In this document: positions 1 to 3,948 of the stretch, in pieces
Position numbering within the stretch: the stretch's first letter is position 1
Layout: every line of letters starts with the position of its first letter
Assembly: GCA_018818505.1 (NCBI GenBank)
Contig: JAHIRR010000267.1
Coordinates: 1-7,752 of the forward strand
Source of the DNA: Candidatus Omnitrophota bacterium
GTDB taxonomy: Bacteria > Omnitrophota > Koll11 > Gorgyraeales > Gorgyraeaceae
Length of the DNA: 7,752 bases
Reading direction: 5' to 3'
Notes under the pieces: generated by a model
The model's database searches: none
What the model saw: only the letters and a program-made list of their open reading frames with translations
Told to the model about the DNA's origin: nothing
Program-made: the position numbers and the translations under genes

Positions 1-3000
1 GGAAATGGCGACAAGATATACCAGACCTCACCTTCGATCTTTGCCATTGGCGGGGCAATGATCTTCCGTAAAAAGGACTTTTTATGGCTGGGTGGCTTTG
101 ACGAGATATACCGGCCTAATTGCTGGGAAGATATTGATATATCTTACAGGGCATGGAAGAGAGGGCTCAAGGTTTTATATGAACCAAGGAGCCTTATGTA
201 TCACAAGGGCAAGGCTACGCTTAGCTATGAAAGACACAAGGAGATCAAGAACGAGCTCTCTTTTATGTGGAAGAACATAACTGACCAGGATCTTTTAAAA
301 ACACACCTCAATTCATTGCCCAGACTGCTGCTTAGGAATAGGCTGCCTTTTTTAAGAGGATTTTTGTGGGGCCTAAGATATTTGCCAAAGACATTATCTC
401 ACCGCTCAAATGAAAGAAGATTTATATGCGCCAGGGATAAGGACATAATAGACTCATGCATGAATTATTATAGGAATTTTGAGAGAGAAGGTTTTAGGCA
501 TCGCCAAAATACAGATAAGAGAAACTTATTGCTTATCACACCCTTTATGCCTTATCCTTTAAATACAGGAGGCAGGATAAGGATACACACCCTGGCCAGG
601 CTTTTAAAAGACAGGTTTAATATCTTTCTTCTTACCCTGATCGATAGCGAGGATGAAGTCAGATTTATACCAGAACTAAAAACTGTATTTAAGGATGTAT
701 ATACGATTTTTCCTAAAACTGCCCCGCCTAAGAACAGGCTTTATCCTTCCAGGTACAAGTATGTCTACAGCCAGTACCTTATAGATAAGTTAAAAGAGCT
801 GCAGAGGGATTTACCGCTGGACCTTATCCAGATAGAATCCAACGAATTACTGTATCTGACAGAGCATGTAAAACATAATCCTGTTATTTATACAGAGCAC
901 GACATCAGTATCCTTACATTTGGCAAATCATATTACAGTAATGACAATAACTTTATAGATTATTTGAAAAGATTCCATTTTCATTACAATATGTATAAAA
1001 ACATAGATAAGGTAATAGCCCTATCCAGGAGCGATGAAGATATCCTTAATGGATTTTTCCCTTCAAAGGACATCAGCCTTCTTACCACAGGAGTAGACCT
1101 GGAGCATTTTTCATTTTCTCCAAATTCTGAAAAGCCAGCCAGGCTTATCTTTGTAGGGAATTACCTGCATTATCCTAATGAAGACGCTATCTTGTATTTT
1201 TCAGACAGGATATTACCGCTAATAAGAAAAGAGAGACCGGATGTAGAGCTTATGATCGTAGGCTCTAATCCTACGGATAAGGTAAAGGCCCTCGCTGAAG
1301 GAGATTCGGCTATCAAGGTTACAGGCGAGGTAAAGGATGTTGCACCGTATTTAGACGAGGCAGCCATATTTGTCAATCCTATAAGGATTAGCGCAGGTAT
1401 AAAGGGTAAGGTCTTAGAGGCCATGGCCAAGGGTGTACCTACTGTTTCTACTGTTATTGGGGCCTCTGGGCTTTTTGGCGTGCATGGGAGAGACTTGTTA
1501 GTGGCTAAAAACGACATTGAATTTGCCGGGCATGTAACAAGTCTATTAGAAAACAGGGATTCTTATCTATATATTGCCAAGAATGCCCGCAGGCTGGCTG
1601 AAGAAAAGTATGATTGGAATAAGCTTGCTTCTGGCCTGGGTGATATTTATCAGGGCGCGGCATATGATTTTCATTCACTCTGGAGAAAACAGGGGTTCAC
1701 CTCAGGCAGTAAATTAGACAAGGTCATAAATGTTACAAATGCAGTGGTTGAGGATGCTATTTCTAGCATGAGAAATGATTCTATTGCCATGCCAGAAGAA
1801 GGCCCAGAAGAACTTCATGTAGAATTAAACTATGACTGTAACTGCAAGTGCATTATGTGTGAATTGTGGGATTACAGTAAGAGGAATGGGAGGGGAGCGC
1901 ATAAAGAGAAACTTACCTTAAAAGGTATTAAAGATTATGTGGAAAAATCAAGGTATCTTAAAGGTGTAAAGACTGTTGTGCTTTCAGGCGGGGAACCTTT
2001 TTTGAATAAAGAATTTGTGGATATATGCAGATTCTTTATGACTAATTTGCCTGACAGCTCTCTGGGGGTACTAACGAATTGTTTTGATACAAAACTAATA
2101 TTAAAGAAGATGCACCAGGTATTGGATGGGGCTGATTTCAATAAATTCTGGCTTGGTACATCCCTTGACGGCATAGGTAAGGTACATGACAAGATCAGGG
2201 GTTCCAGAAAGGCGTTTTCTAATTTAAATAAGACTATAAAACGCTGCAGGCAGGAGTTTCCAGGTGTTGATCTTTGCGCTACATTTACCCTGACCCCGCA
2301 TAACTATAACCAGCTGATACCAGCGAGGAGATTTGCTGATGCAAAAGGCATGGGCTTTCTTGCTCAGTTTACTGTGCCCAAGGAGACCAGGGGGAGGTTT
2401 GCGTGGAGAGAAAAACACTTAAGGAAGATACAAAAGGATGTGTATAAATTTATTGATAGGCTTATAAGAGAAGTCGAGGCCGCAGGCAAGGATGCAGTCG
2501 AGTCCATAAAGGCTATGGAAAATGTGGGATTGATAAGCAATATATACTATCTCAGTAATCTGGTAGATTACCAGAGGCTGCAGCAGAGGTTTTTTAAAAA
2601 ATGCATTGCTGGAGCGAAATTTGCCATGCTTTCGCCGTTTGGCGAACTGTATTTTTGTCCGGGCTTAAAGCATATGGTTGTAGGAGAGATGCAGGATAAG
2701 GCATTTGATTCTCTGTGGATGTCTGATAAAGCAGAAGATGTTCGTTCTTTTATACAAAAAGGCCAGTGTCATTGCTGGCTTGTATGCACAGTATATCCGG
2801 CAGTTGACAAGATATTGAATTCAGTTAAGGATTTGAGATCAAGGCCTATAGCGCCAGAGGTCTTGATAGAGTGTAAAGAGGATTCACAGAGAGATAATAT
2901 CAGCTTGAATGATCTCGAGTATGACTCTAAAAAGATAGTGCTTGAATCCACACCGCGCGGCATCGGAATAGGCATGCATTACCGCTGTAATGCTGATTGT

Positions 3001-3948
3001 GTCTTTTGTCTCAGCGGAGAGCATGCAAATTCTAATCTTGAGGTATATAAGAGGTTTTTTGAGGCAAGACTCCATGATGCCCTGCCCAGGGCTGAATATG
3101 TAAATTTTTGCGGGTTTGGGGAGCTTTTGCTTATGCCAGAGGCCACAGGCTTTTTAGATCACATAAACAGGACATTACCTTGCGTCAATAAGATAATCAC
3201 GACAAATGGCATGCCTTTGACAGACAGGATGTGCGAGAGGATCGTAAGCAGTAAATATAATATACAGGTCTCTCTGCAGGCATCTAATCCCCAGCTGCAT
3301 AAGCGCCTTACACGAACTGAAGGGTTTGATCGCATCTTAAAACAGATAGAGCATTTGCGTTCTATTAGGCCAAATGACAGGAATCCAGCCATATCCCTGA
3401 TTTTTATTGCCAATACACTGAATATAGAAAACCTGCCTGATTTTGTAAAACTGGCGCATTCCCTTGGCGTTGATGAAGTGCTCTGCAATTATATGACAGT
3501 TTATACAAAGGCGCATTTGCAGCTTTCATGCTTTTTCAAACAGGAACTTACTAATATAAAGCTGGAAGAGGCAGAAAGGCTTGCAGAAAAGCTGAATATG
3601 CCTCTTAAATTACCGTCAAGGTTTGGCAGGGAAGAGGATTCCGGTAATGGTAAGATCGCATGCAAGGAACCATGGCAGTATTTTTATGTTGAAAGAGAGG
3701 GGTCAGTTTTGCCGTGCTGTTACGCAGGTGACCATATTGATTATTTGAACACAAAGAAGTTCGAGGCTGTATGGAATGGCGAACCTTACCAGAGATTAAG
3801 AAAGTCTTTAGTAAATAACAATCTTAATTCCTGGTGTAGATTTTGCCCTAAGAACAGTGGTGTCAATATAAATGATATTCGCTCGCACGTAACCCTGCGT
3901 CCGGATTTACAAAAGAAAATCTTGGAGGACGCAAATTTAAAAAAGTAG
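1..3948 (+). CDS. Partial multidomain protein: GT2 tail, GT4 glycosyltransferase, two radical SAM/SPASM modules
   Basis: The frame is open from base 1, and the 19 codons before the ATG at 58 already read as GT2 sequence, so the gene starts upstream. Residues below count from that ATG. Residues 1-110 are the end of a GT2 transferase (GGFDE, then WEDID at 23-27, the usual acidic site). Residues 155-532 form a GT-B, GT4-type transferase, with a GG-rich N-terminal loop and the acidic C-terminal motif KVLEAMAKGVP (E454). Radical SAM core 1 has C594/C598/C601 (CX3CX2C), SGGEP at 643-647 and SLDG at 702-705, followed by a SPASM-like cluster C849, C867, C904, C906, C910. Core 2 has C977/C981/C984, GFGE at 1019-1022, then C1202, C1220/C1221, C1260, C1263. 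Likely cytoplasmic: sugar transfer plus radical modification in surface glycan synthesis. The substrates are not known. The stop is TAG at 3946-3948. The four-module fusion is unusual; domain calls are firm, the joint role is inferred. Confidence 0.93.
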   Translation, partial: GNGDKIYQTSPSIFAIGGAMIFRKKDFLWLGGFDEIYRPNCWEDIDISYRAWKRGLKVLYEPRSLMYHKGKATLSYERHKEIKNELSFMWKNITDQDLLKTHLNSLPRLLLRNRLPFLRGFLWGLRYLPKTLSHRSNERRFICARDKDIIDSCMNYYRNFEREGFRHRQNTDKRNLLLITPFMPYPLNTGGRIRIHTLARLLKDRFNIFLLTLIDSEDEVRFIPELKTVFKDVYTIFPKTAPPKNRLYPSRYKYVYSQYLIDKLKELQRDLPLDLIQIESNELLYLTEHVKHNPVIYTEHDISILTFGKSYYSNDNNFIDYLKRFHFHYNMYKNIDKVIALSRSDEDILNGFFPSKDISLLTTGVDLEHFSFSPNSEKPARLIFVGNYLHYPNEDAILYFSDRILPLIRKERPDVELMIVGSNPTDKVKALAEGDSAIKVTGEVKDVAPYLDEAAIFVNPIRISAGIKGKVLEAMAKGVPTVSTVIGASGLFGVHGRDLLVAKNDIEFAGHVTSLLENRDSYLYIAKNARRLAEEKYDWNKLASGLGDIYQGAAYDFHSLWRKQGFTSGSKLDKVINVTNAVVEDAISSMRNDSIAMPEEGPEELHVELNYDCNCKCIMCELWDYSKRNGRGAHKEKLTLKGIKDYVEKSRYLKGVKTVVLSGGEPFLNKEFVDICRFFMTNLPDSSLGVLTNCFDTKLILKKMHQVLDGADFNKFWLGTSLDGIGKVHDKIRGSRKAFSNLNKTIKRCRQEFPGVDLCATFTLTPHNYNQLIPARRFADAKGMGFLAQFTVPKETRGRFAWREKHLRKIQKDVYKFIDRLIREVEAAGKDAVESIKAMENVGLISNIYYLSNLVDYQRLQQRFFKKCIAGAKFAMLSPFGELYFCPGLKHMVVGEMQDKAFDSLWMSDKAEDVRSFIQKGQCHCWLVCTVYPAVDKILNSVKDLRSRPIAPEVLIECKEDSQRDNISLNDLEYDSKKIVLESTPRGIGIGMHYRCNADCVFCLSGEHANSNLEVYKRFFEARLHDALPRAEYVNFCGFGELLLMPEATGFLDHINRTLPCVNKIITTNGMPLTDRMCERIVSSKYNIQVSLQASNPQLHKRLTRTEGFDRILKQIEHLRSIRPNDRNPAISLIFIANTLNIENLPDFVKLAHSLGVDEVLCNYMTVYTKAHLQLSCFFKQELTNIKLEEAERLAEKLNMPLKLPSRFGREEDSGNGKIACKEPWQYFYVEREGSVLPCCYAGDHIDYLNTKKFEAVWNGEPYQRLRKSLVNNNLNSWCRFCPKNSGVNINDIRSHVTLRPDLQKKILEDANLKK

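Follow-up and report, generated by a model that had tools for sequence, protein, structure and literature searches.

In Klebsiella O12, and nearly so in O7, polymerase and terminator modules are combined in single proteins, the terminator lying at the distal end of a coiled coil serving as a molecular ruler and the polymerising glycosyltransferases (GTs) being C-terminal, as described by Kelly and colleagues (PMC11231755). Here we analyse a 7,752-nucleotide stretch of Candidatus Omnitrophota bacterium DNA (the window; assembly GCA_018818505.1, contig JAHIRR010000267.1, positions 1 to 7,752 of the forward strand), whose first gene belongs to a family with a comparable plan. The Omnitrophota proteins share with Klebsiella O7 ORF6 and O12 WbbB a distal enzyme, a long coiled coil, GT modules on its other side and a locus with Wzm/Wzt. 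In contrast, a GT2 takes the place of the methyltransferase-kinase or Kdo transferase head in the Omnitrophota proteins, in which two radical S-adenosylmethionine (SAM) modules follow the GTs and whose loci contain many further radical SAM genes. The gene probably encodes the polymerase of an ABC-transporter-dependent, lipid-linked, O-antigen-like surface polysaccharide pathway with fused radical tailoring enzymes.

An uninterrupted reading frame (frame +1) extends from base 1 of the window to the stop codon at 3946–3948 and encodes 1315 residues (the window protein). The frame runs off the 5' edge, so that base 1 is not the gene start, which lies outside the window. The protein comprises the C-terminal half of a GT2 module (GT2b; bases 1–540, + strand, 5' end cut by the window edge), a GT4 module of the GT-B type (526–1665, + strand) and two radical SAM modules, rSAM1 (1726–2835, + strand) and rSAM2 (2881–3945, + strand), whose motifs are intact; rSAM2 has a twitch/SPASM C-terminus. 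Pfam reports Glyco_trans_1_4 (PF13692, E 2.4e-27; residues 381–518), Radical_SAM (PF04055) in two stretches, one in each radical SAM module, and SPASM (PF13186; residues 1221–1283) above the cut-off in rSAM2, and an AlphaFold2 model of rSAM1 matches radical SAM chains. The GT4 module scores 185.6 bits against TIGR03087, the PEP-CTERM/XrtA glycosyltransferase family with a curated cut-off of 316.65, and is thus related to this family without being a member. The GT2 tail was recovered through alignment of residues 2–180 to the GT2b of a relative (phmmer), Pfam giving over this region Glyco_transf_7C alone at 19.7 bits (cut-off 23); residues 1–170 share 72% identity with G237:C93. A preliminary description of this DNA had read the frame as a fusion of a GT2 tail, a GT4 and two radical SAM modules, which is confirmed, and the domain search that it proposed detects every part except the GT2 tail, visible only through relatives.

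Both radical SAM modules display the CX3CX2C triad and a GGE-like motif in a radical SAM barrel that characterise the superfamily. The triads are C613/C617/C620 in rSAM1 and C996/C1000/C1003 in rSAM2, identical to those previously numbered C594/C598/C601 and C977/C981/C984 from the ATG at base 58. Conservation was assessed in an alignment of 26 rows containing the window protein and 25 of its 27 relatives P0002–P0028, the aligned relatives being 46–56% identical to the window protein. Both triads, G663-G664-E665 of rSAM1 and E1041 of rSAM2 are invariant in 26 of 26 rows, as are the auxiliary cysteines C868/C886/C923/C925/C929 of rSAM1 and C1221/C1239/C1240/C1279/C1282 of rSAM2. Similarly, the E43-D44 pair of GT2b and E473 of GT4 are unchanged in every row. 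Because the residues checked do not vary across the alignment, decay or a joining error in the window is excluded, and the earlier opinion that neither radical module is decayed holds. The complete SPASM region attributed to each module seems less likely: the five conserved auxiliary cysteines per module look more like twitch (one cluster) than full SPASM, whose cysteine pattern binds two auxiliary clusters.

A search of 5.8 billion proteins returned 70 matches to the window protein, the window included. The 27 relatives P0002–P0028 show 44–55% identity over 99–100% of the query, except P0015 (89%), P0025 (95%) and P0028 (97%), and those that are named belong to Candidatus Omnitrophica/Omnitrophota or to Gygaella, placed by taxonomy in the same phylum. 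At least 13 of 384 Omnitrophota genomes, themselves drawn from a larger group, carry the protein at E ≤ 1.8e-183, a lower bound since the two best first-look candidates per genome were scored (four for the third open reading frame (ORF) of the window, ORF3, where the count of 12 given below is likewise a lower bound). The 50 genomes with matches at E up to 1e-40 include 35 weaker ones (E over 1e-60), aligned almost wholly along the GT4 stretch, and two, G195 and G066, with a more distant GT2-GT4 protein joined to another kind of radical SAM. A phage origin was rejected, tblastn against phages giving five records at 21–30% identity and 13–37% coverage. No description of a polymerase-radical SAM fusion was found in the literature searched, which consisted of titles and the beginnings of abstracts, most subscription journals lying outside its coverage. 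In the main text of the Omnitrophota genome paper PMC10066038 the words 'radical' and 'glycosyl' are absent.

The database search for the same architecture, also proposed earlier, identified 17 relatives with every module. They are 1941–2247 residues long, about 630–930 residues longer than the window protein, and have the order GT2a, coiled-coil linker, hydrophobic segment, GT2b, GT4, rSAM1 and rSAM2. Linker properties were analysed in 29 proteins with strong GT2a, GT2b and GT4 matches, omitting the last 75 residues before GT2b. The linker extends over 118–488 residues and displays a hydrophobic periodicity of 3.5 residues with z>3 against shuffled sequences in 28 of the 29 (P0027, z 1.7), while the same test applied to the GT4 module of these proteins is positive in none of 29. 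A hydrophobic segment lies between the linker and GT2b in all except P0030 (28 of 29), according to a simple hydropathy scan. In an AlphaFold2 model of residues 1–640 of the G225 protein, which is of modest quality (mean predicted local distance difference test score 67.3, six input sequences), two long helices span residues 289–413 and 421–530 (125 and 110 residues). Full-length relatives thus show the arrangement expected of a coiled-coil-ruler polymerase, in which a long coiled coil separates a distal enzyme from the polymerase GTs; this region falls outside the truncated window protein, and the distal end of the coiled coil is occupied by GT2a.

More distant GT2/GT4 relatives reinforce the comparison with Klebsiella. 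In four of five scanned with Pfam (P0058, P0063, P0066 and P0067) an N-terminal methyltransferase precedes the coiled coil and the GTs, P0063 doing so without a Pfam GT2, and these four share the layout given for Klebsiella O7 ORF6 in PMC11231755. Since GT2a occupies the position of the methyltransferase in these four proteins, a role in priming or ending the chain is suggested for it. A further protein, P0070, displays the order GT2, coiled coil and radical SAM.

The fused state is widespread, contrary to the possibility raised at the outset that homologues would always be separate and the fusion confined to this assembly. In an unrooted tree of the GT4-rSAM1 stretch, built from 45 of the 70 matched proteins (the remaining 25 have no strong GT4 with a long rSAM1), rSAM2 is fused in 29 proteins, the window included, and absent from 16, some of which are possibly cut by contig ends. 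The fused or unfused label changes three times on this tree, compared with about 13 times when labels are shuffled. Splits occur at the predicted rSAM1/rSAM2 junction, rSAM2 being its own ORF directly after the polymerase gene in G254, G138 and G352 (gaps of 14, 14 and 6 bases). GT2a and GT2b reside on separate ORFs in G237 and in G082, where the two overlap and a frameshift is possible; ORF3 is divided into its two halves in G225 and G237, and P0049 and P0051 stop after GT4. The order of modules and genes is identical in fused and split forms, as would be expected of proteins that act together, without proving joint action. The fusion may plausibly be ancestral, with the splits having occurred later.

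Upstream sequence was covered in five of the 13 polymerase-bearing genomes. In G225 and G132 Wzm/Wzt immediately precedes the polymerase gene; in G082, where Wzt itself is on two ORFs, it immediately precedes the separate GT2a ORF. The polymerase of G237 is distributed over two contigs; here too Wzm/Wzt is upstream, with one radical SAM-Wzt_C gene in between, and in G003 it is 11 kb from the polymerase gene. Thus, Wzm/Wzt with Wzt_C is found beside the gene in G225, G132, G082 and G237, Pfam detecting Wzt_C in two stretches in the Wzt of G225, G132 and G237. Farther upstream, G225 and G082 have PF00953 (WecA-type) genes and G132 has a Wzy_C (ligase-like) gene, and FAD amine-oxidase-like genes lie upstream in G225, G082, G132 and G237. 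A carbamoyltransferase gene (PF02543/PF16861; L064:18050-19864) was also observed two ORFs upstream of Wzm in G225. Separately, L060:8717-10633 encodes a single protein with a radical SAM/SPASM module and Wzt_C domains, adjoining Wzm/Wzt. A general class of radical SAM-exporter fusions was rejected, since among the 120 of 250 matches listed both Pfam families occur only in the query's own record, and the L060 protein is treated as a one-off.

Downstream of the polymerase gene lies a run of radical SAM genes, all in one direction. Triad counts, which are approximate (mechanical ORFs of at least 100 residues matching phmmer module profiles) and include the polymerase, reach 25 in 34.1 kb in G209, 17 in 26.6 kb in G225, 16 in 24.9 kb in G082, 14 in 23.1 kb in G254, 13 in 19.8 kb in G138, 10 in 19.0 kb in G132 and 9 in 15.0 kb in G237:C83; a contig without the polymerase gene, G286:C21, has 8 in 11.0 kb. 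Contigs of eight of nine genomes therefore hold 8–25 triads, the ninth (G003) holding four. In the 34.1 kb of G209:C217 (L049, L072) all 20 ORFs of at least 100 residues match a radical SAM module profile, and Pfam reports Radical_SAM over the cut-off in 10 of 10 tested, SPASM in 8 and TPR in 6. Genome-wide, 22–108 Radical_SAM Pfam matches were found in the 10 genomes counted. Among other proteins of these runs, G209 encodes one with three consecutive radical SAM modules and several with a TPR-radical SAM-SPASM order. A methyltransferase (Methyltransf_24 in the G225 copy) is fused to an rSAM2-like module at L047:16473-18461 and G254:C29:18729-20702, with homologues in G254, G138 and G286.

Structural comparisons give SkfB and SuiB the highest Z for rSAM1 and rSAM2, with BlsE and DesII among the top matches, and the best PDB profile match of rSAM2 is BtrN, over the auxiliary region. 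BtrN is a sugar-alcohol enzyme, and BtrN, BlsE and DesII act on aminocyclitols or sugar nucleotides. These three are free-standing, in contrast to the modules described here, which are fused to polymerase GTs and show 15–17% identity to them. The choice of a particular reaction from the structural matches was abandoned, as many radical SAM families score alike.

The window contains two further genes. An SGNH/GDSL hydrolase-TPR protein of 424 residues with a hydrophobic N-terminus (3953–5227, + strand; Pfam PF13472, E 1.8e-14, and TPR) begins 4 bases past the first gene, has homologues in the clusters of G254, G138, G237 and G286, and possibly performs an acyl transfer or deacylation step. ORF3 (5227–7752, + strand, 842 residues, 3' end cut by the window edge; Pfam PF02310 and PF04055 in two stretches) overlaps it by one base and consists of a B12-binding radical SAM module, a TPR region and a second radical SAM module. 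It constitutes a second conserved fusion, with full-coverage relatives of up to 72% identity. The N-terminal 460 residues of ORF3 (B12-radical SAM) were found in at least 12 of the 384 genomes at E up to 1e-100, namely in 12 of the 13 polymerase-bearing genomes against 0 of the 371 others (Fisher p about 7e-22, a value weakened by the incompleteness of metagenome-assembled genomes and by shared ancestry). Eleven of these genomes have a close orthologue (56–67% identity), at most two genes away from the polymerase gene in 10 and on another contig in G002; G286, whose polymerase contig ends at the expected place of rSAM2, matches only via a related second copy (42%). Some relatives of the radical SAM modules, though not of the fused polymerase, are assigned by name to groups other than Omnitrophota (P0054, P0172, P0088, P0212 and P0162; Elusimicrobia, Patescibacteria and Chloroflexota), which may reflect transfer or mis-binning, and P0212, with a Patescibacteria name, shows 62% identity to ORF3.

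In the mechanism that we propose, GT2a would sit at the far end of the long coiled coil, with the hydrophobic segment as inner-membrane anchor, and GT2b and GT4, on the other side, would add the sugars of the repeat unit. rSAM1 and rSAM2 would tailor the nascent chain or its lipid-linked precursor by radical chemistry, most likely oxidation, epimerisation or another hydrogen-atom abstraction at sugar carbons. ORF3 may add carbon-bound methyl groups through its B12-radical SAM module and perform a further twitch/SPASM reaction, and the finished chain would be recognised and exported by Wzm/Wzt. The analysis establishes the architecture, its conservation, the locus and the co-occurrence, and from homology we infer the polymerase role, the ruler, the membrane seat and export; we can only infer what the radical modules act on and which reaction they catalyse, as well as the part of GT2a as terminator or primer. 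The position of the radical SAM modules on the polymerase side would be more in line with editing of the repeat units as the chain grows than with a single capping step at its end. More tentatively, and possible rather than probable, the system may operate as a radical-SAM assembly line in which the anchored, ruler-carrying polymerase passes the lipid-linked chain to its fused and up to 23 further radical SAM modules (in the richest contig), which would rewrite linked sugars into C-methyl branches, epimers, and deoxy or cross-linked positions and thereby give a type of surface glycan that radical chemistry has so far not been known to produce. The single assembly-line-like enzyme of the preliminary description therefore survives in part: the fusion is real and the locus fits a radically modified glycan, but the protein is only part of the machine, and with as many as 25 radical SAM triads in a locus, any assembly line would be formed by the locus as a whole and not by one protein. 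The peptide or lipid attached to the glycan, also put forward there as a target, gained no support in the analysis.

Several observations weigh against this interpretation. The window itself has no GT2a, coiled coil, membrane segment or Wzm/Wzt, and the genomes are incomplete metagenome assemblies. rSAM1 and rSAM2 are on the polymerase side and not at the distal terminator seat, and the fold leaves the choice of substrate to either side, since the best matches include both peptide maturases (SkfB, SuiB) and sugar-active enzymes (BlsE, DesII). Split versions exist, and fusion is no proof of channelling. Among distant relatives, P0060 has no methyltransferase head by Pfam, P0056 likewise lacks a methyltransferase and contains a second GT4-type stretch, and G195 gives no Wzm/Wzt match within 5.5 kb upstream. 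G003, a true relative, has only four triads in 39.8 kb, no rSAM2-family match genome-wide (E up to 1e-10) and no B12 partner, the gene after its polymerase being another kind of radical SAM.

The structural matches also fit enzymes that act before polymerisation. The radical modules might modify free sugar nucleotides or small precursors in the manner of DesII, BtrN and BlsE, the fusion co-localising supply with the polymerase, and the place of BlsE and DesII among the top structural matches and of BtrN as best profile match is in line with this; the many modules per locus, in one order beside the polymerase gene, weakly suggest a shared macromolecular substrate instead, and we judge such precursor chemistry unlikely. 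We are equally doubtful that neighbouring operon genes were simply joined and later separated again, without mechanistic coupling. Junctions found both ways, between rSAM1 and rSAM2 (G254, G138, G352), GT2a and GT2b (G082, G237) and within ORF3 (G225, G237), as well as the end of P0049 and P0051 after GT4, are what such neutral events would leave behind, whereas the constancy of gene order in fused and split loci and the three tree changes against about 13 argue otherwise.

Still less probable, to a degree that makes it a distant contender, is a peptide or protein target that the radical enzymes would modify, as for ribosomally synthesised and post-translationally modified peptides (RiPPs), and that the glycosyltransferases would glycosylate. 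SkfB and SuiB, the source of the highest structural Z for rSAM1 and rSAM2, are RiPP maturases, and ORF3 resembles the RiPP C-methyltransferases of TIGR03975, at 132.7 bits below the cut-off of 281.85. However, Pfam detects no precursor-recognition domain, WecA-, Wzm/Wzt- and ligase-like genes are present in the loci, and the largest gaps between ORFs of at least 100 residues, 9–172 bases in seven clusters, leave little room for a precursor gene, although a short one could fit the larger gaps, short ORFs not having been searched. An origin of the open frame in faulty assembly or sequencing, or decay of its modules, has a negligible probability: the window is one contig only, yet 27 relatives cover 89–100% of the query and the catalytic residues are unchanged in the 25 aligned.

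The polymerase with fused radical tailoring enzymes, which we prefer to these alternatives, thus appears as an unusual whole made of familiar parts, a new variant of the ABC-transporter-dependent glycan polymerase whose loci are mostly radical SAM-rich. If this is true, radical chemistry would join the functions carried by polysaccharide polymerases. The proposal suggests a use for part of their radical SAM complement and provides a defined gene set for asking whether radical enzymes edit sugars within a glycan chain. It also leads us to expect unusual surface glycans on uncultured bacteria, about whose cell surface there is little knowledge.

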